This document shows, piece by piece, positions 40,425-56,169 of a stretch of DNA of 64,000 nt. The stretch lies in NCBI RefSeq assembly GCF_002968285.2, contig NZ_CP134400.1, positions 186,001-250,000 on the forward strand. Direction: 5' to 3'. The translations under genes were made by a program, and so were the position numbers. The notes beneath the pieces were generated by a model. It searched no databases and was not told the origin of the DNA. It saw nothing but the letters and a program-made list of their open reading frames with translations. Origin of the DNA: Mycobacterium sp. ITM-2016-00318. GTDB taxonomy: Bacteria > Actinomycetota > Actinomycetes > Mycobacteriales > Mycobacteriaceae. Every line of letters begins with the position of its first letter. The first letter of the stretch is position 1.

Positions 40425-41402
40425 TCAGTAGCCGCCCTGGTTGGCGAAGATGTCGCGCGGGTTGTCCACCATCATCGTGTGGATCTGTTCGTCGGTCACG
40501 CCGCGTTCTCTCAGCGCGGGCAGCACATCGTCGGAGATGTGCAGGTAGTGCCAGTTCGGCATCGCGACCGGAACCAGTTCCTCAGGCAGCCAGTCCATGA
40601 AGCACGACGCGTCGTGCGAAAGCACCATCTTGTCGGAATGGCCGCGTTCGCACATCGTCGCCACCGTGTTCACCCGCTGCTCGCTGTCGAGGAAGGTGTC
40701 CAGCCCGAAGCGGTCCATGCCGATGTAGGAGCCGTTGCCGACGAGCTCTTCCAGGTAGTCGATGTCGGTGGTGTCGCCGCAGTGCCCGATCACGACGCGC
40801 GACAGGTCGACACCCGCTTCTTCGAAGATCCGCTGTTGCTCGAGCCCGCGGCGAGTGGCGGCGTGGGTGTGCGTCGAGATCGGCACACCGGTCTGGCGGT
40901 GCGCCTGCGCCACCGCCCGCAGCACCCGTTCGACACCGGGGGTGACGCCCGGTTCGTCGGTGGCGCACTTGAGGATCGCCGCCTTGACACCGGTGCCCGC
41001 GATGCCTTCGGTGATATCGCGGACGAACATGTCGGTCATCGTCTCGGGGCCGTCAAGCAGCGTGCCGGGGCCGGTGAAGTGGAAGTACATCGGCACGTCG
41101 TTGTAGGTGTACACCCCGGTGGCCACGACGATGTTGATGTCGGTCTGCGCGGCGATGCGCGCGATGCGCGGGATGTAGCGGCCGAGCCCGATCACCGTCA
41201 GGTCGACGATGCTCGTCACGCCGCGCGAGGCGAGTTCGTTGAGGCGGGCGACGGCATCGGCCTCACGCTTGGCCTCGTCGCCCCAGACCTCGGGATAGTT
41301 GTGGTGGATCTCAGGGGACAGCACGAAGACGTGTTCGTGCATCAATGTCACTCCGAGGTCTGCGGTGTCGATTTCGCCTCGCGCGGTATTGAGTTGCGGC
41401 AC
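40425..41402 (-). CDS. php: Phosphotriesterase-like lactonase
   Basis: A 325-aa TIM-barrel amidohydrolase of the phosphotriesterase-like lactonase family, similar to M. tuberculosis Rv0230c. Metal ligands are all present: HEH near residues 22-24, the bridging carboxylated Lys in AAILKCATDE, His in STHTHA and IGHCGDT, and Asp in LSHDASC. Such enzymes mainly hydrolyse lactones, with weak organophosphatase activity. GTG 41402 lies inside the 3' end of aftD (55-bp overlap). The overlap is credible because the family needs strand 1 before HEH; ATG 41342 would remove it. It is followed by an acyl-CoA synthetase after 1 bp. Confidence 0.9.
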   Translation of the reverse strand: MPQLNTARGEIDTADLGVTLMHEHVFVLSPEIHHNYPEVWGDEAKREADAVARLNELASRGVTSIVDLTVIGLGRYIPRIARIAAQTDINIVVATGVYTYNDVPMYFHFTGPGTLLDGPETMTDMFVRDITEGIAGTGVKAAILKCATDEPGVTPGVERVLRAVAQAHRQTGVPISTHTHAATRRGLEQQRIFEEAGVDLSRVVIGHCGDTTDIDYLEELVGNGSYIGMDRFGLDTFLDSEQRVNTVATMCERGHSDKMVLSHDASCFMDWLPEELVPVAMPNWHYLHISDDVLPALRERGVTDEQIHTMMVDNPRDIFANQGGY

Positions 41403-44400
41403 GACGCCGATGCTAGGGCGGCGACCGAGATCAGCGCCAGCAGTTGGACAACCCAGAAGTGTCCGGCGTACCCGTCAACCGAACGCCACGGGTTCTGCGA
41501 CAGCACCGATCCTGCCAGGATCAGCCCGCCCGCACTCGTGCCCACCGTTACGGCGTCGTACAGCGTCGGCCGATGGCGAAGGAGGTGACCGGCACCGAGG
41601 GCCGCGGCGAACACGACGACGCCCGCGAAACCGGCGATCACCCCGCCAGCGGCCAGCACCGCCAGGCCGCAGAGAACTGTGTTGGGTTGCCAGGGCCGGG
41701 CCGGCTCGGCCACTGGCGGTGGACGCCGCGCGGGTACCAAGGCCAGCAGCGTGAGGATCGGCAGCAGCGCCAGGCCGCCGATGATTCCTGCGCGGTAGAC
41801 GGCGTTGGAGCCGAACGTCAGAGTCACGGTCCCCGACGTGCCCTCTGGCACCACCCAGCCCTGCTGCCAGCCGTTGACGGTCACCGGGTGCAACGTCGTG
41901 CCTTCGGCGGTGCGCGCGGTCCACCCCGGGTTGATGCTCTCGGGCACCACGAGGACGCGGGATGTTCGCGACGCGGGGACCTTCACCTCGCGGTGGTCAG
42001 GTCTCCAGGCGCCTGTCTCCACCGGAACCGTTGGCGCGCTGCGCAATTGACGGCCCAACGGTCCGGTCAGTTGCACGCCGTCGGCAACGAAGGCCGCACC
42101 GGGGCTGACGATCAACTCCTGCTGACCCTCGGGCAAGGCTATCGGTCCGGCCCGGCACGGCGTTGCCGCGATGGGCTCGCCGTCGAGCAGCTGACCTACT
42201 GTCGTGTCGATCCTGGTCTGCACGAACTGTCCTGCGACGGCGATGACCGGGCCCGTGCCGCACGGCAGTGACACCGTCCGCGCTCTGTTGCGCGCGGCGT
42301 CGGCGGCGGCGATCGGACGGCCCTGCGCGTCGAGTGCGGTCACCTCGGCCAGCCCCGGCGGCTTGAGTTGGTCGAAGCCGAGAGCCGTCCGGTCGATGAC
42401 GTCGTCCCAGTCGAGGATGGACACCGTGACCGTGTCGGTGACCAGCGGTCGCAGCTTCACCGTCTGCGCGCCCGCATCGGCGGCCAACGGACGCACCTGC
42501 GGGCCGTCGCCGAGGTCGATCGCGACCAACCGGGGATGCGCAGGCAGCGTCGACGCGCTCGGTGTCACCCGCAGGGCGCTCACCTCTTGCGCGGCAGGCA
42601 GTTTCACCGTCAGGTTGGGCGGTGTGCGGTGCTGCACCACGCGCTGCGGCGCCGTCCACGCTGTGCGAGGGTCGCCGTCGGTCGCGGAGTAGACGGAGCC
42701 GAGTACGTCGATCGGGTCGGAGTCTCCGGTGGCCGTCGCGGTCTCCGGCTGCCGGATCAGGTCGGCGAGGCTGGGGCCCTGGCGCGGCCGCACCCACACC
42801 CTCGAGCTCACCGAGATCGGCTCCGGCACCATCAATGTCCGGCTCATGTTCACCGGCTCCTCGGGCGCCAACGCCATCGCCGCCGCACAGTGCACACCGT
42901 CGGGCCCGTCGGCGCAGCCGGAGCGGCCGAGCAACTCGGGACCAAGATCCCATTGCGCGGCAGCGGAGTCCGGTGGCGGACCGGGCACCGCGACCGTATG
43001 GCGCAGCTCGATCGGATGGGCGAAGCCAGACGCGTCGTACTGCGTGACCGTGAAGTCGGTGATGCCGAACTGGACGCCGGGCGACCCGTCGTCGGTGCCT
43101 GCGGCGGTGATGCGGACCCATGGGGTCTCGCCATAGGGCAGCGCCGCGGTGATCGGCTTGCCCGGCTCGTCGAAGCGCAGCGTACTGGTGCCGTTGACGG
43201 TGGAGATCTCCATACGGCGAATCTGGGCGCCGACGGCCGTCGCGCTCGGCGTGATGGTGAGGGTGGCGTTCGTGACCGGATGGTCGAAATCGATTTGCAT
43301 CCACTGCCCGACGGCGGACTGCAGCGCGTTGGACACCCAGCTCGTCGACGAGTCGCTGTCGATGGCCGCTGTCGGGGCGGTCGCGGGTGCGACGTTGGGC
43401 AGTGCGGTCGAGTCCGCCGCGGAGCTCGATACCGAGATACGGCCGCCGGTCCACTCGCCGTGCACCGTACGGGCATCACCCGCGGGATAGTCCGGCACGC
43501 GGTTGAACGTGTGCCGGGTGTCGCCCTCCGCGCGGATCGCCGACGAGTGGTCGTCGACGCGGCCGTAGTCGGTCTCGCGGGCGAGTGGGGTGTCGGTGAC
43601 GGTGACGACGGGGGTCGGCAGCCCGGCGCGCTGGGCGTCGGCGGTCAGCACCATCGGCCCGAGCGGCGGCTGCTTGCTCAGCCTGCGGCGCTCGTCGAGG
43701 CGCAGCAGCGCCTCGGAACCGCCGTCGACGCGGGCCATCGCGTCGGTGTCGGTGAGATACGGACCACCGAGCCGTACTGCATCGACACGAAAGATCTCGA
43801 CGGCCGGGTACTTGGGCCGCAGCCCGCTGTCGGTGATGAAGCCGGAGAGCGTGCCAGGGCCGACCGGTGCACCGAACTCGGCGACCTTCGTCAGCCCCTT
43901 CGAGTCCTCGATCGCGCGGTGCACCAGCACGGGCCGCGCCGACCGCGACGTCTCCGGGTCGAGGTCGTTTCGCACGACGACATACGAGATCCCCTGTCGG
44001 GCGAGGGTGTCCGCCAGTCCGGCCGACGGTCGGCCCGCTGCGAACAACCGCTGCACCGAGTCGAGCGCGCGGATGGTCTGCGGCGGTGTCAGCGGAATCG
44101 AGTCGCGCACACCCCACGGGCCGGCGCCAAGCACCTGCAGCGGTTCATCGTGGCTGGACCCCCACGTCTGCGTCGCGAACGGCGCACCCGGCGCCACCAG
44201 CACGCGACCCGGCGGCGACCCGGTGTTGTGCTCGTCGAGCCAGGCCGCCGTCTGGTGCCAGTAGGGCGGGATCGCGTCGAACGCGCCAGGTGGTGTCAGC
44301 CGTCCCGTCCACGCCAGTGAACTGCCCGCGGCCAGCGCGACGAGCACCACCATGCCGACCGCCACCCGCTTGTCGTTCTCCGGGTGCGCGAAGGCGTGCA

Positions 44401-45586
44401 GCCATTCGCGTCGCGGCACAGCTCCTGGCAGCGGGATGCGGCCGAGCAGGTGCGCAAGGCCGAGTACCAGTGGCAGCCGGATCAGCGGTTCGAGCTTGTG
44501 CACGTTGCGCAGCGGGGTGCCGTCGGCGTCGAGGAACGTCTGAACCGCATGTGCAAGAGGCGATCCGAGGCCGCCCGCATATCCGGCCGCCAGCAGCGTG
44601 ATGCCGATCAGCAGGATCGTCACCAACCGACCGCGGGCAGGCATCCCGCGCATCGCGAGCCCCGCCAGTCCCGCGGCGGCCACAAGCGTGGTGGCCAGTA
44701 CCGCGACGGTCCCGGTGACCAGCGTCGCCCCGGCGGTGGCGTTCGGCGCCACGAACGGCGTCCAGCTGTCGGTGCCGCGCAGCACCTCGGTCAGCGAGGT
44801 CCATTGCGTTGTGACACCGGAGGATTCGATGAAGTCGAGGAATGGCGGGCTGACCCGGCCGAGCATGACGAGTGCCACCACCCACCATGCGATGGCCAGT
44901 ACCGCACACAGCGCCCACCACGCGGTGAACCGCAGCCACAGCCGGTTCGGCCGGTGACAGGCCCACCAGATGAGCGCCGGCAGGCAGCCGGTCAGCGTCG
45001 CGACCGCGTTGACCGCACCCATGAGCGCGAGCGCCAACGCCGACCGCGCGGCGAGCACCCGTACGTCACCTGAACCGCGCAGCGCCAGCACCACCGGCAG
45101 CAGCACCCACGGCGCCAGCATCATCGGCAGCGTCTCCGACGAGATCGCGCCGATCGTCGTCAGCACGCGCGGCGACAGCGCGAAGGCGGTGGCCGCGATG
45201 ACACGCGAACCGGGCGATCCGATGCCGAGCGCTTCGGCCAGCCGCAGCAGTCCCCAGAACCCGATGGTGAGCAGCAACGCCCACCACAGCCGCTGGGTGA
45301 CCCAGCCGGGCAGGCCGAGCACGTCGCCGAGAAGGAAGAACGCGCCGTGCGGGAACAGGTAGCCGTAGGCCTGGTTCTGGGTCTGGCCGAACGGCAGCTC
45401 GCTGTTCCACAGGTTTAGCGCGCGGGCAAGGAACCGCAGCGGGTTGGCGGTCAGGTCGAGCTTAGTGTCTGGCGAGATCTTGCCCGGCGACTGGGCGAAC
45501 GTGAGGGCCAGCGAAATCGCCGCGACCAACCACAGCCAACGGCGAGGAACTGGCGTCAGGCTAGCTGCGGTCGCCGTACTCGACAC
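41348..45586 (-). CDS. aftD: Arabinofuranosyltransferase AftD
   Basis: A 1412-aa membrane glycosyltransferase of the GT-C type. It adds arabinofuranose from decaprenyl-phosphoryl-arabinose to arabinogalactan and lipoarabinomannan on the outer face of the membrane. The N-terminal 400 or so residues hold many membrane helices. The acidic loop SPDTKLDLTANP near residues 38-49 is in the usual catalytic position after helix 1. The large middle and C-terminal periplasmic region has carbohydrate-binding-like beta domains. Terminal helices follow near residue 1300. Length agrees with Rv0236c (about 1400). It overlaps the upstream DUF2613 gene by 26 bp and php by 55 bp, forming a tight operon. Confidence 0.95.
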   Translation of the reverse strand: MSSTATAASLTPVPRRWLWLVAAISLALTFAQSPGKISPDTKLDLTANPLRFLARALNLWNSELPFGQTQNQAYGYLFPHGAFFLLGDVLGLPGWVTQRLWWALLLTIGFWGLLRLAEALGIGSPGSRVIAATAFALSPRVLTTIGAISSETLPMMLAPWVLLPVVLALRGSGDVRVLAARSALALALMGAVNAVATLTGCLPALIWWACHRPNRLWLRFTAWWALCAVLAIAWWVVALVMLGRVSPPFLDFIESSGVTTQWTSLTEVLRGTDSWTPFVAPNATAGATLVTGTVAVLATTLVAAAGLAGLAMRGMPARGRLVTILLIGITLLAAGYAGGLGSPLAHAVQTFLDADGTPLRNVHKLEPLIRLPLVLGLAHLLGRIPLPGAVPRREWLHAFAHPENDKRVAVGMVVLVALAAGSSLAWTGRLTPPGAFDAIPPYWHQTAAWLDEHNTGSPPGRVLVAPGAPFATQTWGSSHDEPLQVLGAGPWGVRDSIPLTPPQTIRALDSVQRLFAAGRPSAGLADTLARQGISYVVVRNDLDPETSRSARPVLVHRAIEDSKGLTKVAEFGAPVGPGTLSGFITDSGLRPKYPAVEIFRVDAVRLGGPYLTDTDAMARVDGGSEALLRLDERRRLSKQPPLGPMVLTADAQRAGLPTPVVTVTDTPLARETDYGRVDDHSSAIRAEGDTRHTFNRVPDYPAGDARTVHGEWTGGRISVSSSAADSTALPNVAPATAPTAAIDSDSSTSWVSNALQSAVGQWMQIDFDHPVTNATLTITPSATAVGAQIRRMEISTVNGTSTLRFDEPGKPITAALPYGETPWVRITAAGTDDGSPGVQFGITDFTVTQYDASGFAHPIELRHTVAVPGPPPDSAAAQWDLGPELLGRSGCADGPDGVHCAAAMALAPEEPVNMSRTLMVPEPISVSSRVWVRPRQGPSLADLIRQPETATATGDSDPIDVLGSVYSATDGDPRTAWTAPQRVVQHRTPPNLTVKLPAAQEVSALRVTPSASTLPAHPRLVAIDLGDGPQVRPLAADAGAQTVKLRPLVTDTVTVSILDWDDVIDRTALGFDQLKPPGLAEVTALDAQGRPIAAADAARNRARTVSLPCGTGPVIAVAGQFVQTRIDTTVGQLLDGEPIAATPCRAGPIALPEGQQELIVSPGAAFVADGVQLTGPLGRQLRSAPTVPVETGAWRPDHREVKVPASRTSRVLVVPESINPGWTARTAEGTTLHPVTVNGWQQGWVVPEGTSGTVTLTFGSNAVYRAGIIGGLALLPILTLLALVPARRPPPVAEPARPWQPNTVLCGLAVLAAGGVIAGFAGVVVFAAALGAGHLLRHRPTLYDAVTVGTSAGGLILAGSVLSQNPWRSVDGYAGHFWVVQLLALISVAALASASCRNSIPREAKSTPQTSE

Positions 45587-45813: not shown

Positions 45814-46962
45814 ATGGCCCTGCCCCGTGTAATCGGTGTTCTCGCGGCGACGACCGGCTTGCTGCTGGCGTGCTCGACCACCACCGAAAAGCCCGACGCG
45901 TCGCCCCAGTCCAACACCTCGCAGGACAGCCCGCTGCCCGCCGCGCCCGCACCACCGGCCTGCGGTGATGTGCTCGCTTCCATGTCGGTTCGCGACAAAC
46001 TGGCCCAGCTGCTGATGGTCGGCGTCACCGGCGCCGACGACGCGCGCGCCGTCGTCGACAACCACCACGTCGGCGGCATCATGATCGGCAGCTGGACCGA
46101 CCTGTCGATGATGGGTGCCCCGCTCGCCGGCATCGCCGACTCGGCGAACCCGCTGCCGCTGGCCGTCAGCGTCGACGAGGAGGGCGGCCGGGTGTCGCGC
46201 CTCGCCGGCCTGATCGGCCCCCAGCCGTCGCCGCGGGTGCTCGCACAGACCATGACGCCGGACCAGGTCCGCGGTATCGCGTTCCAGCGCGGCCAGGCCA
46301 TGCGCGGGCTCGGGGTGACGATCGACTTCGCCCCTGTCGTCGACGTCACGACCGAGACCGATGAAGAGGTGATCGGCGACCGCTCGTTCGGCTCGGATCC
46401 GCAGCAGGTGATCGAGTATGCGGGCGCCTACGCCCAGGGATTGCGCGACGCCGGTGTGCTGCCGGTGCTCAAGCACTTCCCCGGGCACGGCCACGCGTCG
46501 GGCGACTCGCACGAGGGCGGCGTCGTCACCCCGCCGCTCGATGAGCTCAAAACCGACGACCTGATCCCGTATGCGACGTTGACCACCCAGGCGCCGGTCG
46601 CCGTCATGGTCGGCCACATGCAGGTGCCCGGCCTGACCGGCACCGACCCCGCCACCCTCAGCCCGGCCGCGTACGGCCTGCTGCGATCCGGCGGCTACGG
46701 CGGACCCGGCTTCGGCGGCCTCGTCTACAGCGACGACCTGTCCAGCATGGGCGCGATCAACCAGCGCTACGGCGTCGCCGACGCGGTGCTGCGCGCACTG
46801 CAGGCGGGCGCCGACGTCGCGCTGTGGGTCACCACCGACGAGGTGCCCGCGGTGCTGGACCGGCTGGAGAAGGCGCTGTCGGCGGGCGAGCTGTCGCAGG
46901 CCCGCGTCGACGACTCGGTGCTCAAGGTGGCCACCCAGAAGGGGCCTAACCCGAAGTGCTGA
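45814..46962 (+). CDS. lpqI: Lipoprotein beta-N-acetylglucosaminidase, GH3 family
   Basis: A 382-aa exported lipoprotein. A signal peptide ends at lipobox LLLACS (Cys near residue 20), followed by a Ser/Pro linker and a GH3 TIM barrel. Active-site features are KHFPGHGHASGDSHEG (His/Asp acid-base loop, near residues 220-236) and the nucleophile Asp in VYSDDLSSMG near 307. It resembles NagZ-type enzymes that release GlcNAc from muropeptides, hence a cell-wall recycling role. It matches M. tuberculosis Rv0237. Divergent from the aftD operon by a 79-bp gap. Confidence 0.92.
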   Translation: MALPRVIGVLAATTGLLLACSTTTEKPDASPQSNTSQDSPLPAAPAPPACGDVLASMSVRDKLAQLLMVGVTGADDARAVVDNHHVGGIMIGSWTDLSMMGAPLAGIADSANPLPLAVSVDEEGGRVSRLAGLIGPQPSPRVLAQTMTPDQVRGIAFQRGQAMRGLGVTIDFAPVVDVTTETDEEVIGDRSFGSDPQQVIEYAGAYAQGLRDAGVLPVLKHFPGHGHASGDSHEGGVVTPPLDELKTDDLIPYATLTTQAPVAVMVGHMQVPGLTGTDPATLSPAAYGLLRSGGYGGPGFGGLVYSDDLSSMGAINQRYGVADAVLRALQAGADVALWVTTDEVPAVLDRLEKALSAGELSQARVDDSVLKVATQKGPNPKC

Positions 46963-46969
46963 TATCCCG

Positions 46970-48418
46970 TCACCGCACGGCCCGCACGACTCCCATCGTC
47001 GGATCCGATGCGCTGATCGGGTTGCCCGCATCGCGTAGCGCAGCGAGCAGCCCGATGACGTCGTCGTCCAACCGCTCGCCGGGCATAACCAGCGGAATGC
47101 CCGGGGGATAGGGCGTAATTGCTTCCGACGCAATGCGTTTCGAGGCCTGCCGCAGCGGGACCGCCTCGTCGGCGGCGAAGAACGCCTGCCGCGGCGTCAG
47201 CACCATCTCTGGACGAGCCGCGAGCACGTCGGCGGTCAGAGCGCGCGGTGCGCTGTGCCTAGCCGGCCCGACGTGCGCGGCGACTTCGGTGAAGCCGTCG
47301 ACCAACCGGTCCATGTCCTCGTCGGTGTTGCCGATCGTTACGATGCACAGCACATGTCCCGTGCCCGCGAGTTCCGGTTGCACGCCGTGGACCTCGTTGA
47401 GACGCCGGACGATGTCTCGTGCGTCGGCGGCCAGACCCGAAGTGCCGACCAGCAGTTTGGTCTCGTCGAGCTGGTGCAGTCCGGTGCCTGCGCCCGTGAG
47501 ATGCCGCGGTCGCAGCACAGTGAGACCGTCGACGGCCTCCACCCGCTCCGCGGTCCGCCTGGTCCGCGCCAGTGTCTCATCGAGGAGTGCCCGGCCCTCG
47601 AGCATCATCTGTCGACGGGCCAGGTCGATCGAGGCCATGATTGCGAAGTGCGGGCTGGTGGTCTGGATCAGCTGCAGGCCGCGCCGCACGGCGGCGGATT
47701 CGATGATCGCGGTGTCGACGTGCACGACGGCGGCCTGGCTGAGGCCCGACAAGATCTTGTGCACCGATTGCACCGTCGCCGCCGCACCCGCCCTCTCAGC
47801 GGGTGTGGGCAGGTCGGAGTGGAATGCGAAATGCGGCGAATGTGCGCCGTCGACAAGGAGCTTGGCGCCGTGACGGCGGCACAGCTCGGCGAGCGCGACG
47901 ATGTCGCCCGTGGTCCCGTAGTACGTCGGGTGCAGAGTCCACAGCGCTTCGGCGGCGGTCTCGGCGAAGGCGCGTTGCACGGTCGCCGTGTCGAGGCCGT
48001 GTGCCACCCCGAACTCGTCGTCCCAGCGCGGTGCCAGCCACACCGGTCTCGCACCGACAGCCACGAGGCCCGCAAGCACCGACTTGTGCGCGTTCCTGGC
48101 GACGAGCACCGGCTGGTCGGCCCGCAGCGCCGACAGCGCGACGGCGATGTTCCCGGACGTCGATCCCTGCACCAGGATGAAGCTTTCGGGCACACCCCAC
48201 GCGTCGGCGATCAGGCGTTCCGCTGCAAGGATCGGGCCCGCCGGGCAGTGCAGGGTGTCGGTGTCGGGCAGGTTGTTCAGGTCGATCGCGGCGATGTGCT
48301 CCCGAAACCACGCGTCGAGCGTCCGGCCGCCCTTGTGGCCCGGGCTGTAGAACGGCGCCTGGTCCCGCTCGACGAACCGTCTCAGCGCGTCGAAGAGCGG
48401 TGCGGCAGCGTGGGTCAT
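46970..48418 (-). CDS. Orn/Lys/Arg-type PLP decarboxylase
   Basis: A 482-aa fold-type I PLP enzyme of the short (SpeA/YaaO-like) branch without the N-terminal wing. The opening FYSPGHKGG is diagnostic. LLVDGAHSPHF carries the Asp that contacts the pyridine N. The PLP Lys is in SVHKILSGLSQ near residue 232. The C-terminal domain has EAITPYPPGIPLVMPGE. It would decarboxylate a basic amino acid to a di- or polyamine. ATG 48418 overlaps the amidohydrolase stop (ATGA), so it is the last gene of the GS-permease-aminotransferase-amidohydrolase operon. The exact substrate cannot be told from sequence. Confidence 0.88.
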   Translation of the reverse strand: MTHAAAPLFDALRRFVERDQAPFYSPGHKGGRTLDAWFREHIAAIDLNNLPDTDTLHCPAGPILAAERLIADAWGVPESFILVQGSTSGNIAVALSALRADQPVLVARNAHKSVLAGLVAVGARPVWLAPRWDDEFGVAHGLDTATVQRAFAETAAEALWTLHPTYYGTTGDIVALAELCRRHGAKLLVDGAHSPHFAFHSDLPTPAERAGAAATVQSVHKILSGLSQAAVVHVDTAIIESAAVRRGLQLIQTTSPHFAIMASIDLARRQMMLEGRALLDETLARTRRTAERVEAVDGLTVLRPRHLTGAGTGLHQLDETKLLVGTSGLAADARDIVRRLNEVHGVQPELAGTGHVLCIVTIGNTDEDMDRLVDGFTEVAAHVGPARHSAPRALTADVLAARPEMVLTPRQAFFAADEAVPLRQASKRIASEAITPYPPGIPLVMPGERLDDDVIGLLAALRDAGNPISASDPTMGVVRAVR

Positions 48419-49590
48419 AGCGAGTAGACGCGTTCGGCGTTGTGCACGCCGATCATGTCGACGATCGCGATCGCGTCCTGTTCGCCGCAGTCGCCGGTGC
48501 GGACCCACTCGCCGAGGACGAGCCCCATGGCCCGGCGCCACAGCACCGCGCCGAGCAGGTGTAGTTCCGGCGGTCCGAACGCGTCCGAGCTGTACAGCTG
48601 TTTGGCGAACGGTGCGGTGTCAAGAGCCTCGGCGACCAGTGAGGTCGATCGGCTGCCGAGATAGTTGATGGCAAGCCCCACATCGAAATTCACGTTGTCG
48701 AAGGCCTGGGCGAGGTAGCCGGCGTTGCGGTGGAACGGGTAGCAGTGCAGCAGCAGCACCGGCACCGGCGCCATGGTGCGCAGCAGCGGGAGCAGCAGCA
48801 GCGGGTCGGTCCGGTTCAGGTCCAGATCCCGGTCGCCGAATCCCACGTGCACCTGCAGCGGCAGCCCGTGTTCGGCGGCGGCGTGCACACCGAAGGCGAT
48901 CAGCACCGGGCTGTCGACCCGTAAATCGTTGCCCCGCGCGCGGATTGCGGTGGCGCTGTCGACGACCGTCATGTCGGTCGGGCGCGACCAGTCGATGTCG
49001 AAGCCGGTCCGGTAGGCCACGATCGTCTTGGTGCCTACGACGTCGGGCGAGTCGGCCGCCCGCTGCAGCGCCGACCGGAACGCGTCGGGGAAGTCGATGG
49101 GGTCGGTCCCGGCCTCCAGCAGGTCTTCGGTGAGCCGCTCGAGCCGGAGGATCGACGAGGCGGGCGTGCCGCTGCGCTCGGTCATCTGGTCCGGGGTGGT
49201 GAGCAGGTCGCCCTTGAATCCGGTGTCGACCACCCAGCGCGCGACACCAGCCTGCGTGAGCATCGCGGTGGTCAACTCGTCGGGCCCGAGCTCGCTGCGT
49301 CGCGCCCAGTAGTCGTCGGCGGACGCATGCGGGGGCAGCCCGAGAACAGGTGCACACCAACGCCGGATCGCCAACCCGAGCGGTGAATCGAACATCGTCA
49401 TGAAGTCGGGAACAGGGTCGGTGGACCCCTCGTTGATCGACGCTTCGAAGTCGGCCCTGTCGACGGGCTTGGAGAAGGCGCCATGCACGTGGTGATCGAC
49501 GAGTTGAATGCCGCGGATGTGGTCGGCGAGCGCTGCGGGCACCTGGTCTTCGACGCCGGAGAAGACGTCTGGCACCTCACCAACCTCCAT
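48415..49590 (-). CDS. FluG-like amidohydrolase
   Basis: A 391-aa TIM-barrel amidohydrolase of the amidohydrolase_2 type. The HxH metal motif is VDHHVHG near residues 30-36; further ligands are probably His in LPLQVHVGFGD and LLLHCYPF and Asp in YSSDAFGPPE. Related domains are fused N-terminally to glutamine synthetase in fungal FluG; here the GS is a separate gene of the same operon. ATG 49590 was chosen because GAGGAGG lies just upstream; it overlaps the aminotransferase end by 14 bp. It probably hydrolyses an amide or decarboxylates a ring or keto acid in the pathway. The reaction is unknown. Confidence 0.82.
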   Translation of the reverse strand: MEVGEVPDVFSGVEDQVPAALADHIRGIQLVDHHVHGAFSKPVDRADFEASINEGSTDPVPDFMTMFDSPLGLAIRRWCAPVLGLPPHASADDYWARRSELGPDELTTAMLTQAGVARWVVDTGFKGDLLTTPDQMTERSGTPASSILRLERLTEDLLEAGTDPIDFPDAFRSALQRAADSPDVVGTKTIVAYRTGFDIDWSRPTDMTVVDSATAIRARGNDLRVDSPVLIAFGVHAAAEHGLPLQVHVGFGDRDLDLNRTDPLLLLPLLRTMAPVPVLLLHCYPFHRNAGYLAQAFDNVNFDVGLAINYLGSRSTSLVAEALDTAPFAKQLYSSDAFGPPELHLLGAVLWRRAMGLVLGEWVRTGDCGEQDAIAIVDMIGVHNAERVYSL

Positions 49591-50884
49591 AACGTGCAAC
49601 CTCCTCGGCGTCGACCTTTCCCGCTGCGGCGTCGGCGATGGCATCGCCGAGGATGGCGGCCGCCCGGCCCGCCTCGTCCTCGGTCAACACCAGCGGCGGC
49701 GTGATCTCCAGGACGTTTCCGCCGACGTAGAAGACGACCGCTCCCAACTCCCACGCACGGTAGACGACCTGCGCCGCGAAACGCGGATCGCGGTCGCCGG
49801 TCTGCGGGTCGACGAGTTCGAGCCCGATCGCCAGGCCGCGTCCGCGCACTTCGCCGATGCGGTCAGTACCGGGCGACCCGGCCAGCCCGCGGAGGGCATC
49901 GGCAAGGGCCGCGCCGACTTTCGCGGCATGGTCGGCGAGCTTGTCGGCGACGATGGTGGCGAGCACCGCGCGTCCGGCCGCGGTGCACACCGGGTTGCCC
50001 GCGGTGGTCAGCAGCGCGGCGGCGGGCGGTTCGTCGAGTATCGCCGCCGGGCCGACGGCCGCTGACAGCGGAAGCCCGCCGCCGAGCACCTTGCCGAAGG
50101 TGACGATGTCGGGCACCACGCCGTCGTGTTCGAAGGCGTGCAGCGTGCCTGGGCGGCCGAGGCCCATCTTGACCTCGTCGCAGATCATCGGAACGCCGTT
50201 GGCGCGGCAGAGGTCGTGCAGTCGGGCCAGAAAGCCGTCGGGCGGCACCACGAGCCCGCCGTCGGACAGGATCGGCTCGACGATCAGGCAGGCGGCCGAT
50301 CCTGTCACCAGGTGTTTCTCGGCCAGATCGAGGCACTGGGCGACATCGGCGTCGATGCCGGCCCCCGACGGCCGAAACGGATTGGGATACGGCAGAAAGA
50401 CCGCGTCGGCGTCGGGCGGTGCTCCGGCGTCGACGTGCACGCCGGAGACGCCCATGGCCACGCCGACGCCGCCGTGGTAGCTGTGCTCGAACGCGAGCAC
50501 GGTGCGCTTGCCCGTTGCGTGCCTGCAGGCCCGAATGGCGACGTCGTTGGCGTCAGAACCGGCATGCCCCAGATAGACCCGGCGCTCTCCGCTTCCCGGC
50601 ACCAGCGCAAGCAGATCCTCGGCGAGCCCGACAGAATCCGGATGCACCGCCGAGAGTCCGCCTGCGCCTGGGGCCGTGCGCACCGCCCTGCTGACCGCTT
50701 CTGCGACGGCCGGGTGGCCGTGGCCAAGCCCGCTTGCCGTCCAGGTGGCCGACAGGTCGAGCAGTTCGCGGCCGTCCGGATCGACCAGGGTCGAGCCGTA
50801 CCCCGACACCACCTCGAGCGGGAAGAACCGCAGCTTCTCTATGCCTGCGATGGCGGCTTCGTCGCGCTCGTAGAGGGTGCTCAC
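49577..50884 (-). CDS. Class III aminotransferase
   Basis: A 435-aa PLP aminotransferase of the omega-amino-acid/diamine type (class III). Features are GHGHPAVAEAV near residue 55, the PLP-phosphate loop GHAGSDANDVA near 110-120, MICDEVKMGLGRPG with the pyridine Asp near 240, and the PLP Lys in TFGKVLGGGLP near 270. Such enzymes convert a terminal amine to an aldehyde. GTG 50884 overlaps the permease stop (GTGA), so the genes are translationally coupled. In the context of a GS-like ligase and a basic amino acid decarboxylase, a polyamine, gamma-glutamyl-amine or omega-amino acid is the most likely substrate. Confidence 0.88.
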   Translation of the reverse strand: MSTLYERDEAAIAGIEKLRFFPLEVVSGYGSTLVDPDGRELLDLSATWTASGLGHGHPAVAEAVSRAVRTAPGAGGLSAVHPDSVGLAEDLLALVPGSGERRVYLGHAGSDANDVAIRACRHATGKRTVLAFEHSYHGGVGVAMGVSGVHVDAGAPPDADAVFLPYPNPFRPSGAGIDADVAQCLDLAEKHLVTGSAACLIVEPILSDGGLVVPPDGFLARLHDLCRANGVPMICDEVKMGLGRPGTLHAFEHDGVVPDIVTFGKVLGGGLPLSAAVGPAAILDEPPAAALLTTAGNPVCTAAGRAVLATIVADKLADHAAKVGAALADALRGLAGSPGTDRIGEVRGRGLAIGLELVDPQTGDRDPRFAAQVVYRAWELGAVVFYVGGNVLEITPPLVLTEDEAGRAAAILGDAIADAAAGKVDAEEVARYGGW

Positions 50885-52374
50885 TGTGGCTTCAGGTTGA
50901 GCTCGGCCGACAGCGACTCGCCCACACGCTTGGCGATGCCGGAGGCGGCAACGGCGATGATCGCGCCGATGACACACCAGTACAGCCCGAGCAGCGGTGC
51001 CGAGGTGGCGGTTTCGGCGTCCTTGACGTTGAACCACAGCACGACGACGATCACCAGGGCACCGAGCAGCGGCAGCACGATGCCTGCGATCCTGCCTTTG
51101 CCTCCGTGCACGCCAACAAATTTCGGTGAGCCGACGAACCAGGTGGCAGCGAGCTCGACAAGCAAATAGCAGACCATCAGGCACACCGAACCGGCGACGG
51201 CGAACAGGAAATAGGTGTCGATCGCGTCGTTGCCGGTGCCCATGTCGGGCCAGCCGACCGCGCCGCAGATGAGGTTGACCACCACCGCGACGATGACGAC
51301 GAGCCAGGTGGCGCGGCGCGGGCCGCCGGTCGTTGCGTGGATGTGCGCCAGCGCCTTCGGGCCGAAGCCGTCGCGCGCGAACGCGTACAGCATGCGCCCT
51401 GAGGTCGCCGATGTGGCCAGGTGACACCCGAACGCCGACACGATCGCGGTGAAGATGACCACGAGGCCGAACCACTGGCCGACATAGGTTCCGCCGAGGT
51501 CGCCCAATGTGTTTCCCGAGTTCTGGAACGCGTCGAGCCCGGCCTGGTCGGTGCCGAAACCGTTGACCTGAGCGAACATCACGACGACGAACAGCACGCC
51601 GGTGAGCAGGAGTGTGCCCGCCAGCGCCCTCGGGATGTTGCGGCCGGGATTGTCGGTCTCCTCGCCCATCGACGCGCACGCTTCGAAGCCCGCCCAGGAC
51701 AGGAACGCCGCGACGACACCCGCGAGCACCGCCGACGGGGAGACGCCGCTACCGGAGAAGGAGAACACCGAGAAGTCGATACCCGTCGACGGTGCGCCGC
51801 CTTTCGCGAAGATCACCACGACGAGCGCGATCATCGCCAGGATGCCGAGGCCCTCGATGACGAGAAGGACCTTGGCGAGCAGCTTGACGTCGCGGCCCGC
51901 GAGCAGGAAGGAAATCACCGCGGCGATCACGACGACCACCAACCACGGCGGCTGGGAGGGGTTTTCGCTGTCGGGCCGCAGCTCGGTGATGAAGGCTCCT
52001 GTGAACGCCGCGGTCAAGGCGAGGGTGCCGATCGAGAACATCCAATACGCGCCGAGCATCGCGAAGCCGGCGAAGAACCCGGCCCTCGGCCCGATGGTGC
52101 CGCCGACCAGGCCGTAGGACGAGCCCGCGTGGTTGAGGTGCCGGGTCAGCCGCACGAAGCTGTAGCCGACGAGCGACACGCCGACGAGCCCGATCAGGAA
52201 CACCAGCGGGATGGATTTACCGACGGTGCCGATCAGGCCCTGGCCGTTGCCCGACATCGCCAGGGTCGGACCGACGAGCGCCACCGAGAGGGCCAGCGCC
52301 ACCCAGAAGGGCAGCTGCCTGTGCGGGATCTGGTCGACTTCGTCCGACGCCCCGGCGGGGGTCTCTGTGGTCAT
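50881..52374 (-). CDS. APC-family amino acid/polyamine permease
   Basis: A 497-aa inner-membrane transporter with about 12 hydrophobic segments. The APC substrate-binding helix 1 has the glycine turn (LAMSGNGQGLIG region near residues 38-50). Further family features are GGTIGPRAGFFAGF and a conserved FEACASMGEETDNPGRNIPRA near residues 240-260. It resembles actinobacterial permeases adjacent to GlnA-like genes. ATG 52374 lies 35 bp after the glutamine synthetase. It presumably imports the amine or amino acid used by the pathway. Confidence 0.9.
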   Translation of the reverse strand: MTTETPAGASDEVDQIPHRQLPFWVALALSVALVGPTLAMSGNGQGLIGTVGKSIPLVFLIGLVGVSLVGYSFVRLTRHLNHAGSSYGLVGGTIGPRAGFFAGFAMLGAYWMFSIGTLALTAAFTGAFITELRPDSENPSQPPWLVVVVIAAVISFLLAGRDVKLLAKVLLVIEGLGILAMIALVVVIFAKGGAPSTGIDFSVFSFSGSGVSPSAVLAGVVAAFLSWAGFEACASMGEETDNPGRNIPRALAGTLLLTGVLFVVVMFAQVNGFGTDQAGLDAFQNSGNTLGDLGGTYVGQWFGLVVIFTAIVSAFGCHLATSATSGRMLYAFARDGFGPKALAHIHATTGGPRRATWLVVIVAVVVNLICGAVGWPDMGTGNDAIDTYFLFAVAGSVCLMVCYLLVELAATWFVGSPKFVGVHGGKGRIAGIVLPLLGALVIVVVLWFNVKDAETATSAPLLGLYWCVIGAIIAVAASGIAKRVGESLSAELNLKPQ

Positions 52375-52409
52375 CGCCGTCTCCTTCTACTCGAGAGTTT
52401 CACGTGTGG

Positions 52410-53729
52410 TCAGCAGCTCCAGGCCAGGCGCAGGGCCTGGGTCGTCTCGGCCAGGGGCCGGTCGCCGTAGGTGGTGATCTCATGCCGCCGGACCGCGACC
52501 AGTCCTTCGATCACCCACGGAGACAACAGCTGCGCGGCGACGGGGGAGTTCTCCAGCGCCTTGATGACGGTCTGCTGGTCGGTCCGCAGCATGGGTGGCG
52601 GCTGAGCCGCCTTGGCCGGATCCTTGGGCACTTCGGCAGGCAGCTCGAGGTGCTGGTCGATGCCGAGCAGCGCGCTGCCGAGGAACGACACCGCGGCGAG
52701 GTAGGGGTTGGCACTCGGATCGATCAGCTTGAGTTCGATGTTGGCGCCGTGCGGTGTGCCCGGTGTGGCTGCGATGAATCGCAGTGCGGCTTCGCGGTTC
52801 TCCAGGCCCCAGCACTGCGCCGCGCCTGCCCAGTTGCCGGGTTTCAGTCGCGCCGACGACAGCACCGAGCCCGCGTAGACCCCGAGCAGATCGGGAAGCG
52901 TCTGCAGTACACCGGCGATCGCGGCGCCGCCCGCCTGGCGGGTGCCGTGCGGGCCTTCGCCGCCGGAGAACAGCGGCCCGTCGCCGTCGGCGAGGGAGAG
53001 GTGCAGGTGGGCGCCGTTACCCGCCTCACCCTCGAACGGCACGGGGGAGAACGAGATGCGCAGACCGTGCCGTGCGGCCGCCCTCCCCATCACGATGCGC
53101 GTGGCCGCGACGGCGTCGACGGCGGCCACCGGGGTGGACGGGGCGAGCGATACCTCGAGCTGATCGTGGCCGTACTCGGTGTGGATCTGCTCGATCGGCA
53201 GGCCGGCGCGCTCCGCCGCTTCGGCGAGGTCGACGAGGAACGCCGAACGGTCCAGCGAGGTGCGCACCCCGTACGGTGACCACGGCTGCGCGGATGCGTG
53301 TCCCGCGTCGTCGGACAACATCGTGGCCTCGAGCTCAGCGCCGATCTTGGCGGTCAGACCCTTTGCGCTCAAAGCTTTTTCGACACGCTTGAGCAGGGAG
53401 CGCATGCACAGGTCCGCCGGGTTGCCCTGCTGATCAGTGAGGTCGCCTGGGGCCCACGCGATTCCGTCCTCGACCAGCCGAAGGTCGGCGGGGTCGATTC
53501 GGATGCGGAGGTCGCCGTCGACGCCGATGTTCGGCGTGAACGCGATGCCGCTGTCCACGCAGAACACGCTCCATGACGGGGAGACGCCCATCCCTGACCG
53601 CTGAAAGGCCTCGAGTCGACGCAGCGGCACGTACTTTGCGCGCGTCACGCCCGCCAGGTCGGTGATCGAACCCGCGACGAGCCCGACACCCTGTGCGCGC
53701 AGCTCCTCGACGTCTTTGGGCAACGGCAT
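52410..53729 (-). CDS. Non-canonical glutamine synthetase (gamma-glutamyl-amine ligase type)
   Basis: A 439-aa GS-fold ligase. Recognisable sites are GAELEATML (first metal Glu), EYGHDQLEVSLAP, NGAHLHLSL (ammonium and metal loop), ENREAALRF and DPSANPYLA. Several differ from assimilatory GlnA: IELKLIDP lacks the expected Arg, and no C-terminal adenylylation Tyr motif is visible. Such relatives (PuuA, GlnA3/GlnA4) join glutamate to putrescine, polyamines or ethanolamine. GAGGAGG precedes ATG 53729. It is the first gene of the amine operon and faces a regulator arm across an AT-rich gap with a palindrome. Confidence 0.88.
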   Translation of the reverse strand: MPLPKDVEELRAQGVGLVAGSITDLAGVTRAKYVPLRRLEAFQRSGMGVSPSWSVFCVDSGIAFTPNIGVDGDLRIRIDPADLRLVEDGIAWAPGDLTDQQGNPADLCMRSLLKRVEKALSAKGLTAKIGAELEATMLSDDAGHASAQPWSPYGVRTSLDRSAFLVDLAEAAERAGLPIEQIHTEYGHDQLEVSLAPSTPVAAVDAVAATRIVMGRAAARHGLRISFSPVPFEGEAGNGAHLHLSLADGDGPLFSGGEGPHGTRQAGGAAIAGVLQTLPDLLGVYAGSVLSSARLKPGNWAGAAQCWGLENREAALRFIAATPGTPHGANIELKLIDPSANPYLAAVSFLGSALLGIDQHLELPAEVPKDPAKAAQPPPMLRTDQQTVIKALENSPVAAQLLSPWVIEGLVAVRRHEITTYGDRPLAETTQALRLAWSC

Positions 53730-53763
53730 TGAACCTCCTCGGACGTCACGAGTGTGCGAGCCG

Positions 53764-53786
53764 TTTATGTCATAAATGTTTCATAA
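53764..53786. promoter_or_regulatory. Palindrome and direct repeats in the divergent promoter of the amine locus
   Basis: TTTATG-T-CATAAA (53764-53776) is a perfect palindrome. TCATAA recurs at 53770-53775 and 53781-53786, one helical turn apart (11 bp). The 124-bp gap is strikingly AT-rich for this genome. This is the likely operator of the RpiR regulator encoded downstream. Confidence 0.55.
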
Positions 53787-53853
53787 TCTCTAAGATCAGC
53801 GCTAGAGGATTGATATATAAAATTCTGACGCGTGCCGTTGAAGGGGTTCAGCC

Positions 53854-54660
53854 ATGTGCCGATTGCTGGGTGTCGTCTCCGCCACCCCGATTTCGGTGTC
53901 GCGCGCCGTCGGTGAGCAGGTGTTGGCGGACTTCGTGGCGTTGACGAAGATCCACGGCGACGGATGGGGAGTCGCACGCGTCCGATTACCCGGTCACGAC
54001 CCGAAGATCGAGGTGTCGGCGGGCAGTGCGGCAGATGATCCGCACTTCATCGCGGCCACCCACGATCAGCGGTCAGCGGCGAACCTCGTCCACCTGCGCT
54101 GGGCCACGACCGGCCTCGCGGTGCGGCCGGACAACTCACACCCGTTTCTCGCCGATCGAATTGCGATGGCGCACAACGGCTCCGTCAAGCCGATCGGTCA
54201 GCTCGATGACCTGTTGTCACCCGAGATCGCCGCGACGATGCGCGGGTCGACCGACAGCGAACGCTATTTCGGCCTGATCCGCCAGCAGCGCGCCTCGTCG
54301 CCGGATCTGGCTGAGGCGGTTCGCCGGGCGGTATCGCAGCTGCGCGAGGTCTTCCCGACCGCCAGTCTCAACGCGATCGTCATGGGCGAGGATCAGATGA
54401 TCGCGGTGCATGCGCACGCCCGCAGCCAACTGCCCGACCCGGACATCGCCGAGATCACCGCGGCGGGTCTGCCCGCCGAGCACCTCGAGGACTACTTCGG
54501 TATGAGGTGGACCCGCACCGATGCGGACAGGGTCGTGATCGCGTCGACAGGTTTCGGCGACCTCGACTGGCAGCCGCTGGAGTCGGAAAGCGTCACCGCG
54601 ATCTCGATGTACGACCTCTCCATGACGACGCTGCCGCTGATGACTCCTTCGACGCCATGA
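53854..54660 (+). CDS. Class II glutamine amidotransferase-like Ntn hydrolase (YafJ/EgtC type)
   Basis: A 268-aa Ntn-hydrolase. Cys2 (MCRLLG) would be the nucleophile after Met removal. Family positions are HGDGWGVA near residues 33-40, LRWATTG near 80 (Thr in place of His of the RWATHG type), NSHPF, MAHNGSV (oxyanion Asn-Gly) and GSTDSERYF (Asp for the glutamyl group). EgtC, a relative, removes glutamate from a gamma-glutamyl intermediate, so a gamma-glutamyl hydrolase role in the adjacent amine operon is plausible. The ribosome site GAAGGGG is well placed. It overlaps the RpiR gene by 4 bp (ATGA). Confidence 0.82.
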   Translation: MCRLLGVVSATPISVSRAVGEQVLADFVALTKIHGDGWGVARVRLPGHDPKIEVSAGSAADDPHFIAATHDQRSAANLVHLRWATTGLAVRPDNSHPFLADRIAMAHNGSVKPIGQLDDLLSPEIAATMRGSTDSERYFGLIRQQRASSPDLAEAVRRAVSQLREVFPTASLNAIVMGEDQMIAVHAHARSQLPDPDIAEITAAGLPAEHLEDYFGMRWTRTDADRVVIASTGFGDLDWQPLESESVTAISMYDLSMTTLPLMTPSTP

Positions 54661-55511
54661 CCGGCGAAACGGTGGCGGTGAAGGCGAATTCCGCGCTCTC
54701 GACGCTGAGCAAGGCCGAGCGCCGGGTGGGCCGTGCACTGCTCGCCGACTATCCGAGCGCCGGGCTGGCCAGCGCGGCCCGGCTGGCCGAACGCGCCGAA
54801 GTCAGTCCGCCGACCGTGCTGCGGTTCGCCCAGTCGCTGGGGTACGAGGGGTTCACCGATCTGCAGGTCGCGTTGCGCGCCGAGCTGTCGGCCCAGTCGA
54901 ACGGGCCGATCACCCGGCTGCCGGACGCTCCGCCCGCGGGCGGCCTACTCGACCGGCTCCTTCAGCAGGCCCGGGCCCAGAACGAACGGGCCGTCGAAAC
55001 GCTTGCCGCACTGCCGTCTCCGGCGCTCGAGGCGGCTGTCGCGCTGCTTTCGGACACCGGGCGGACGGTGCACCTGCACGGGGGACGGTTCTCCCATCTG
55101 CTGGCCGCGCACCTGGCCGCGCACCTGGAGCAGCTGCGTCCAGGGATTCGGGTACTCGCCGATCCCGACGGCACCGACATGGGCGTGATGCTCGAAATGT
55201 CGCGCACCGACGTCGTCGTTTTGTTCGACTACCACCGCTACCAGCGCAGCGTCGCCGAGCTCGCATTGCGCGTGCACCGGGCGGGGGCGACGGTTCTGCT
55301 CATCACCGACGACCTGGCCTGCCCGGTGGCGCCGGAAGCCGAGGTGGTGCTCGCCGCGTCGAGCACGGTCGGCACGGCCTACCAGAGCATGGCGGCCGGA
55401 TTTCTCCTCACCGAGCTGCTGGTTCCGCTCGTCATGGACACATTGGGGGAACCGGCGCGCACGCGGATGGCGCTGTGGGAGGAGCAGCGCAGAGCCGTAC
55501 TGCTGCCCTGA
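54657..55511 (+). CDS. RpiR/MurR-family regulator
   Basis: A 284-aa regulator. The N-terminal HTH_6 domain (about residues 8-80) includes LSKAERRVGRALLADYP and AEVSPPTVLRFAQSLGYEGFTDLQ. A SIS domain follows (about 125-265; GRTVHLHGGRFSHLLAAHLAAHL, then VVVLFDYHRYQRSVAELAL). SIS domains normally bind phosphosugars, but members linked to amine or amino acid genes occur. ATG 54657 overlaps the upstream stop (ATGA), so it is translated with the amidotransferase-like protein. It is divergent from the GS operon and is the obvious controller of both arms. Confidence 0.85.
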   Translation: MTGETVAVKANSALSTLSKAERRVGRALLADYPSAGLASAARLAERAEVSPPTVLRFAQSLGYEGFTDLQVALRAELSAQSNGPITRLPDAPPAGGLLDRLLQQARAQNERAVETLAALPSPALEAAVALLSDTGRTVHLHGGRFSHLLAAHLAAHLEQLRPGIRVLADPDGTDMGVMLEMSRTDVVVLFDYHRYQRSVAELALRVHRAGATVLLITDDLACPVAPEAEVVLAASSTVGTAYQSMAAGFLLTELLVPLVMDTLGEPARTRMALWEEQRRAVLLP

Positions 55512-55539: not shown

Positions 55540-56169
55540 ATGGCTGGTGGTACCAAACGGCTCCCGCGTGCCGTCCGAGAGCAGCAAATGCTCGACGCCG
55601 CGGTGCAGATGTTCTCGATCAACGGCTATCACGAGACGTCGATGGATGCGATCGCCGCACAGGCCGAGATCTCCAAGCCGATGCTGTATCTCTACTACGG
55701 CTCCAAGGAAGAACTGTTCGGGGCGTGCCTGGATCGCGAGCTCGCCCGCTTCGTCGAGACGGTGCGCGCCGAGATCGACTTCAGTCAGAGCGCGAAGGAT
55801 CTGCTGCGCAACGCGGTGCTGTCGTTTCTCAACTACATCGACACCAACCGCGCGTCCTGGATCGTGCTCTATACGCAGGCGACCAGTTCGCAGGCGTTCG
55901 CGCACACGGTGCGCGAGGGCCGCGAGCGGATCATCGACCTCGTCGCCCGGCTGCTGCAGTCCGGCACCCGAAACCCCGAGCCGGACGCCGATTTCGACAT
56001 GATGGCAGTAGCGCTGGTGGGCGCGGGCGAGGCGGTGGCCAACCGCGTCAGCGCCGGCGACGCCGACGTCGACGAGGCCGCCGAGCTGATGATCAACCTG
56101 TTCTGGCGCGGACTGAAGGGCACGCCGTCAGAAAAGGAAGCCTCTGCGGCAACGACCACCGGCGGCTAG
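55540..56169 (+). CDS. TetR-family regulator (Rv0238-like)
   Basis: A 209-aa regulator. The HTH covers about residues 14-62 (REQQMLDAAVQMFSINGY, then AEISKPMLYLYYGSKEELF). The ligand domain contains LNYIDTNRASWIVLYTQ. It matches the M. tuberculosis Rv0238 position after lpqI, but here the amine locus lies in between. It starts at ATG 55540, 28 bp after the RpiR stop, so read-through transcription is possible. The 3' end overlaps the convergent methyltransferase by 4 bp. Target genes are unknown. Confidence 0.87.
   Translation: MAGGTKRLPRAVREQQMLDAAVQMFSINGYHETSMDAIAAQAEISKPMLYLYYGSKEELFGACLDRELARFVETVRAEIDFSQSAKDLLRNAVLSFLNYIDTNRASWIVLYTQATSSQAFAHTVREGRERIIDLVARLLQSGTRNPEPDADFDMMAVALVGAGEAVANRVSAGDADVDEAAELMINLFWRGLKGTPSEKEASAATTTGG

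Follow-up and report, generated by a model that had tools for sequence, protein, structure and literature searches.

A cluster of seven genes in Mycobacterium sp. ITM-2016-00318 (assembly GCF_002968285.2, a single 5.46-Mb contig) is proposed here to be a mobile cassette, controlled by RpiR, for the catabolism of an alpha-amino amide or alpha-amino lactam via gamma-glutamyl intermediates. It lies at positions 46970–55511 of the 64,000-nucleotide stretch that we analysed (the window; NZ_CP134400.1, positions 186,001–250,000). We infer the reactions, their order and the substrate, and put the probability of this reading at about one half; it builds on computed family memberships, intact active sites, the loss of ammonium-site residues, synteny, the occupation of different chromosomal sites and a conserved intergenic element.

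Seven genes in two divergent arms

An earlier note, made from the letters of the window, had described seven genes in two divergent arms, and all seven were found in place with the expected domains. The arms are 124 bp apart. The five-gene minus arm begins with a ligase of glutamine synthetase (GS) fold (52410–53729; PF00120, 214 bits) and continues, after a 35-bp gap, with an APC-family permease, presumably an importer (50881–52374; PF13520, 128 bits), a pyridoxal 5'-phosphate (PLP) enzyme of fold type I with a GTG start (49577–50884; Pfam Aminotran_3, PF00202), an Amidohydro_2 metal hydrolase (48415–49590) and an Orn/Lys/Arg-type PLP decarboxylase, also of fold type I (46970–48418). The major and C-terminal domains of the decarboxylase both exceed their Pfam cut-offs (PF01276, 193 bits; PF03711, 51 bits), and its PDB relatives include LdcC, AdiA and 2x3l. 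From the permease onwards, consecutive genes overlap by 4, 14 and 4 bp, and each overlap reported earlier was located: GTGA between permease and PLP enzyme (50881–50884), 14 bp between PLP enzyme and amidohydrolase (49577–49590), and ATGA between amidohydrolase and decarboxylase (48415–48418). The plus arm consists of an N-terminal nucleophile (Ntn) hydrolase of class II amidotransferase fold (53854–54660) and an RpiR/MurR-family regulator (54657–55511) whose HTH_6 and SIS domains are over cut-off (PF01418 and PF01380); these two genes overlap by 4 bp in a further ATGA (54657–54660).

The class III PLP enzyme groups with racemases

The PLP enzyme had been read as a class III aminotransferase, which holds as a Pfam name (PF00202), but the protein falls in a racemase clade and carries racemase residues. 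Among solved structures, its top seven matches scored 392–406 bits, while the next racemases reached at most 234 and the first gamma-aminobutyrate (GABA) aminotransferase 216. Two of the seven were deposited as alpha-amino-epsilon-caprolactam (ACL) racemase, while 6gio bears the name amino acid amide racemase; the remaining four, near-identical to one another, were entered as ‘Aminotransferase class-III’ (5m49 and others), and these last we take to be a Rhizobium ACL racemase. Identity was 51% to 5m49 and 49% to 6gio, and no more than 35% to any of the eight class III paralogues compared (of ten found in its own genome) or to L126, from another genome. Against the GABA aminotransferase model TIGR00700 the protein scored 245 bits, below the cut-off of 507.

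The lysine of a DEVK motif and the aspartate of an SDGG motif, the positions that distinguish 5m4d and 5m4b from 5m46, are both retained in the window enzyme, together with the PLP lysine and the pocket W, Y and T (residue numbering and roles in the racemases being as we presume them). Neither the DEVK lysine nor the SDGG aspartate occurs in any of the eight compared paralogues of the same genome. All six residues are kept in the relatives compared from actinobacterial module loci, Klebsiella, Pantoea, Sinorhizobium, Maritalea (ADGG, with the Asp kept) and Haladaptatus_A; the pocket W is missing from 6gio.

In a tree of 34 of the 66 available rows (most mycobacterial near-copies, stretches of fewer than 330 residues and the two-piece Sulfitobacter gene were left out), the PLP enzyme grouped with 5m49 and 6gio in a clade of 19 rows (support 100/99); a wider clade of 21 rows (98/95) takes in two more, one from a haloarchaeon and one from an actinobacterium. 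The grouping ‘module or ACLR’ needed two changes on this tree, because L125, pre-assigned elsewhere, fell beside Haladaptatus_A. Clade and catalytic residues thus place the protein among the ACL/amino-acid-amide racemases, with racemase activity itself predicted, and it is not PuuE-like. The correction matters since the label ‘class III aminotransferase’ would steer pathway prediction towards polyamine transamination. ACL racemases accept amino lactams, amino-acid amides and homocysteine thiolactone (PMC11391342, PMC7431475).

Ligase and amidohydrolase correspond to the two halves of FluG

For the amidohydrolase, 2qpx was the sole PDB match at E ≤ 0.001 (E 1.2e-33), and for the ligase 4hpp was the top match (E 5.3e-44). 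FluG has been modelled on 2QPX and 4HPP with its catalytic residues listed (PMC6478659). All seven residues given there for 2QPX/FluG are present in the amidohydrolase (H34, H36, K188, Y193, H248, H282 and D336), which would be the counterpart of the FluG N-terminal half. In the ligase, the putative C-terminal-half counterpart, 11 of 12 listed positions equal 4HPP, including W300 in place of the GS-I flap glutamate; the twelfth is S50, at the GS-I ammonium-site aspartate, a serine as in FluG. S50 and W300 correspond to FluG S481 and W726, and the ATP, glutamate and metal residues are kept. Judged by these residues, the two proteins are the halves of FluG with complete active sites, encoded not as a FluG-like fusion but as separate genes, with the racemase and permease genes in between.

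Loss of the acidic ammonium residues of true GS makes it unlikely that the ligase forms glutamine from ammonium; GS-type ligases without those residues glutamylate amines (PMC6478659; PMC5403932). The ligase fits the residue pattern of gamma-glutamyl ligases despite scoring 183.9 bits against the PuuA equivalog (NCBIfam GGputSyn), under its cut-off of 650. The amidohydrolase half of FluG has been likened to cyclic amidohydrolases (PMC6478659), and so would suit a lactam.

The window ligase has an orphan paralogue, 45% identical, elsewhere in the same genome (C1, approximately 2983466–2984770; L136:9467–10771, +); relatives of the other six genes were not found in the 19 kb fetched around it.

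The Ntn hydrolase is EgtC-like and does not stand in for PuuD

The Ntn protein, presumably a gamma-glutamyl hydrolase, has an EgtC fold, with EgtC as its top structural match, and a Cys directly after the start Met (Cys2) that is invariant in an alignment of 12 rows, the window protein and 11 of 120 listed proteins (out of 1,899). PuuD is a class I enzyme, and the earlier note had the Ntn hydrolase taking its place. No class I PuuD hydrolase is found among the seven genes; a PuuD-type Peptidase_C26 gene adjoins another GS gene in the same genome (C1:2170313), so that nothing has been replaced and the proposal as worded is ruled out. The accompanying idea, that the ligase attaches glutamate and the EgtC-like protein releases it, is favoured by the ligase residue pattern, the EgtC fold with Cys2, a mycobacterial locus that keeps just this pair (L069, below) and the co-conservation of the genes; we infer such a cycle still, shorn of its Puu analogy.

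Two Amnibacterium-like contigs carry Ntn relatives (L094:10001–10786 and L096:1563–2351) beside phosphotransferase system and DNA polymerase I-like genes, as judged by eye, with no module partner. The second, a metagenome-assembled genome (MAG) labelled Acidobacteria, looks like a misassigned Amnibacterium-type contig.

A conserved element between the arms

A 28-bp element (53766–53793, unstranded), beginning TATGTCATRAATGTTTCA, lies in the intergenic region. It was matched in 45 of 46 mycobacterial intergenic regions (the window included) and in 0 of 920 shuffled sequences, the pattern having been derived from the same rows on which it was scored, rows that are related by descent. Twenty of its 28 columns reach 93% identity or more, and it ends 49–80 bp upstream of the Ntn start, most commonly 51. 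The four non-mycobacterial intergenic regions taken fell below the same match limit. Its 18-bp core has one place in the genome at three or fewer mismatches, a perfect match; a control pattern also had one match. The single mycobacterial intergenic region without the element, L069, also lacks RpiR, a lone exception that lends weak support. The element is probably the RpiR operator, serving both arms from one intergenic region.

The cassette is conserved and changes chromosomal site

A species-genome collection was scanned with the Ntn alignment, giving 124 stretches with a relative, of which the top 80, representing 78 distinct loci, were retained. As mycobacterial loci were picked by their Ntn match, the Ntn count is no evidence, and partners were counted at 55% identity or more; genes in distant loci were called with a simple codon-based script. 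Among 37 mycobacterial loci with full flanks, the ligase was present in 37, the permease, amidohydrolase and RpiR each in 36, the racemase in 35 and the decarboxylase in 31; the other six held nothing resembling the decarboxylase beyond chance matches. All seven genes occurred together in 30 of the 37, in several neighbourhoods, so the set is not a chance assembly. The co-conservation outside its own genome that the earlier note had proposed as a check is thereby borne out, in other actinobacteria as well.

In the window, the cassette is flanked on the left by a GH3 gene (45814–46962) and a very large gene (41348–45586) and on the right by a TetR gene (55540–56169), which we take to be the counterparts of mycobacterial lpqI, aftD and Rv0238. 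The cassette occupies this lpqI–tetR site in only 17 of the 37 loci, and a link to lpqI or peptidoglycan recycling is rejected on that ground. The others lie in several neighbourhoods with gene order kept (25 loci were examined for neighbourhood), and from these different chromosomal sites the cassette looks horizontally mobile.

Across a genus sample, an Ntn protein of at least 62% identity was present in 18 of 118 genomes, its own included. In a phylum sample of 296 genomes, racemase relatives at E ≤ 1e-70 occurred in at least 3 genomes (own included, with only 36% and 43% identity in the two others) and Ntn matches at E ≤ 1e-10 in at least 12 (own included, with 26–38% identity in the eleven others); these counts are lower bounds, as the initial pass scored at most 5 (racemase) and 8 (Ntn) candidates per genome. 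The module looks rare outside mycobacteria. Where it occurs, its composition varies: a Geodermatophilaceae locus (L087) has the core without the decarboxylase; one Jatrophihabitans contig (L106) runs from amidohydrolase through Ntn, and another (L110) has Ntn, RpiR and then a 34% identical decarboxylase relative; a Marmoricola fragment (L090) holds racemase, permease, ligase and Ntn. Ntn, ligase and racemase stand together in two Nanopelagicales (L108, L115) and in three other actinobacterial MAGs (L107, L112, L113), with the amidohydrolase too in L112. In L108 (1–2241 and 4076–9983), this trio is preceded by Liv-type ABC transporter genes (by eye), a class V aminotransferase, RpiR and an APH–M23–class III aminotransferase fusion.

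Downstream of the cassette in eight mycobacterial loci (L052, L053, L056, L057, L061, L070, L072 and L080) we observed a DAO oxidase (7/8), an aldehyde dehydrogenase (6/8), a PucR regulator (5/8) and a class III aminotransferase (3/8, at the stretch end). This group could supply oxidation steps in those loci; the dehydrogenase was not counted as part of the module, as these genes occur in one mycobacterial group in varying combinations and other groups lack them.

Racemase and ligase recur in other phyla with different hydrolases

Racemase relatives at E ≤ 1e-60 were found in 85 plasmid records, 45 of them from Klebsiella; the listing covered 60 of the 85. All eight proteobacterial plasmid loci that were opened (Klebsiella, Pantoea, Sinorhizobium, Maritalea, Sulfitobacter, two Shinella and Rhizobium) place the racemase with RpiR, a GS-type ligase, an N-formylglutamate-amidohydrolase (FGase)-family protein and an isochorismatase-type hydrolase. 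For Shinella HZN7 and Rhizobium, the ligase was identified by its annotation at the stretch edge, and the Sulfitobacter racemase reads in two pieces. No relative of the Ntn protein or of the window-type amidohydrolase was found in these eight loci (E ≤ 1e-4, flanks of 8–9 kb), nor any relative of the Klebsiella hydrolases in the window or 12 compared actinobacterial loci (E ≤ 1e-8), among which L125 and L126 are short stretches around the racemase match. As the hydrolases differ between the proteobacterial and actinobacterial loci, the shared core is therefore racemase and ligase, mostly with RpiR, and the hydrolases are swapped by lineage. A Haladaptatus stretch likewise holds racemase-type, amidohydrolase and ligase genes, with an Lrp-type regulator.

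Two enterobacterial plasmid sets (L116:5045–10293 and L117:5042–10293) comprise RpiR, ligase and permease together with a racemase that shares 61% identity with its mycobacterial counterpart. This enterobacterial plasmid racemase is nested within the actinobacterial part of the racemase tree, and the set is likely to represent a transfer between phyla. A near-identity search of an E. coli collection (5,426 genomes) with 4.2 kb of the Klebsiella set (ligase, permease and racemase) gave no match. The Sinorhizobium ligase gene (L140:5088–6399, −) reads in two frames and carries no annotation. Genes for TonB-dependent siderophore receptors lie near the racemase–ligase sets of Shinella (L137:13236–15635) and Sinorhizobium (L140:2769–4982), two of the eight proteobacterial loci.

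A proposed pathway and its alternatives

In the pathway that we favour, the permease would import the compound and the ACL-type racemase would interconvert its D and L forms; the FluG-type ligase would then join the gamma-carboxyl of glutamate to the free amine, the FluG-type metal hydrolase would open the amide or ring, and the EgtC-like Ntn hydrolase would remove the glutamate. The decarboxylase may form an optional branch, draining the freed basic amino acid (of lysine or ornithine type), and both arms would be transcribed from the one intergenic region.

Several points weigh against this scheme. Why an amide should need glutamylation ahead of its hydrolysis is not explained. The Ntn protein scores 49.4 bits against the EgtC equivalog TIGR03442, under the cut-off of 218.65, and its predicted model is of middling confidence. 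Of the 32 non-mycobacterial loci, 19, some of them on short contigs and including examples from Amnibacterium and Cryobacterium, carry an Ntn relative (31–41% identity) with no partner gene, so this protein family extends beyond the module. Nor is the racemase an obligate member: mycobacterial L069 retains only the ligase–Ntn pair, L077 and L073 lack the racemase, and in a Microbacteriaceae locus (L088) the ligase, amidohydrolase, permease, Ntn and RpiR genes occur with no racemase. The PLP enzyme might nonetheless act as a transaminase, and RpiR regulators with SIS domains often sense phosphosugars.

Closest to the earlier note is a Puu-like diamine pathway, in which the decarboxylase would make cadaverine or putrescine, the ligase would glutamylate it, the class III enzyme would transaminate the free end and the Ntn hydrolase would release glutamate. 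It accords with the amine-glutamylating activity of GS-type ligases that lack acidic ammonium residues (PMC6478659; PMC5403932), with the presence of the decarboxylase in 31 of 37 mycobacterial loci, and with the return of such a decarboxylase, in another position, in Jatrophihabitans (L110). We nevertheless consider it unlikely: the PLP enzyme bears the DEVK and SDGG residues missing from all eight compared class III paralogues, and the analogy with Puu fails further, as PuuB oxidase and a PuuC-type aldehyde dehydrogenase are, like PuuD, absent from the seven genes by Pfam, the rest of the genome lying outside that search. That the decarboxylase supplies the core amine, as had been suggested, is itself unlikely, since it is missing from 6 of the 37 loci and has no relative in the 10 plasmid-collection stretches compared; an optional add-on to the core pathway is its best reading.

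Less probable again is the detoxification or salvage of alpha-amino (thio)lactones such as homoserine lactone and homocysteine thiolactone, whereby the racemase would epimerize the compound, the ligase cap its reactive amine and the metal hydrolase open the ring. The ACL racemase of Achromobacter obae does exchange the C-alpha proton of homocysteine thiolactone (PMC11391342), but this route does not call for an Orn/Lys/Arg decarboxylase, and there is no direct evidence of lactone chemistry in the amidohydrolase. An ergothioneine side function, with the Ntn protein acting as EgtC beside unrelated neighbours, recommended itself through the top structural match and is ruled out for practical purposes, for a true EgtC (290.7 bits, over the cut-off that the window protein misses) adjoins EgtD elsewhere in the genome and the Ntn gene stands with GS, and mostly with racemase and amidohydrolase too, in mycobacteria and some other actinobacteria.

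Implications and comparison with known systems

If the amide or lactam cassette that we propose is correct, it might, more speculatively, exemplify the type of pathway in which the ACL/amino-acid-amide racemase family natively acts: alpha-amino lactams or amides of natural origin would be deracemized, gamma-glutamylated by a FluG-type ligase, ring-opened by a FluG-type amidohydrolase and freed by the Ntn hydrolase, with fungal FluG a fused remnant of the same chemistry. We hold this extension to be doubtful. Its substrates could be, for instance, siderophore ends made of cyclic hydroxy-ornithine or hydroxy-lysine, or the lactams of ornithine and lysine; the basis for a siderophore source is thin, consisting of general siderophore chemistry and the TonB receptor genes near two of eight proteobacterial loci. 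The occurrence of ACL-racemase and FluG relatives in one conserved, regulated operon offers two open questions, the physiological pathway of the ACL racemases and the pathway of FluG, a shared testable setting, in mycobacteria and, with different hydrolases, in proteobacteria. No description of this operon was found in the literature searched, which left most subscription journals outside and included the available parts of PMC6061476, PMC11841054, PMC8407117 and PMC10606097.

The Puu pathway of Escherichia coli (PuuA–E) differs in its class I PuuD, where the window has a class II Ntn hydrolase, in its PuuB oxidase and PuuC dehydrogenase, and in using a GABA aminotransferase where the window has a racemase-type PLP enzyme. 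The two share a GS-type gamma-glutamyl-amine ligase, a permease and a hydrolase releasing glutamate (PMC9397018). EgtC shares the fold and N-terminal Cys of the window Ntn protein, which is set apart by its score under the family cut-off and by the separate true EgtC in the genome. In Streptomyces coelicolor, an Amidohydro_2 gene follows glnA3 in the polyamine-induced genes GlnA3–SCO6961–SCO6960 (PMC5403932), the same succession of GS-like ligase and Amidohydro_2 protein; GlnA3, however, is a polyamine ligase, and the available text describes no neighbouring racemase, Ntn hydrolase or RpiR (PMC5403932).

FluG of Aspergillus has a role in conidiation and is assigned to an as yet unidentified pathway (PMC6478659). 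It has both halves, shares 2qpx and 4hpp as top PDB relatives and agrees in its catalytic residues down to the S and W of the ammonium sites; there the halves form one fused protein, whereas here two genes share an operon with permease, racemase, Ntn hydrolase, decarboxylase and RpiR. The ACL/amino-acid-amide racemases, finally, match the window PLP enzyme in clade, catalytic residues and an identity of about 50%. The available parts of the literature present them as biocatalysts without a physiological pathway (PMC11391342, PMC6061476, PMC7431475), whereas the window enzyme is encoded within a conserved operon together with a ligase and hydrolases.

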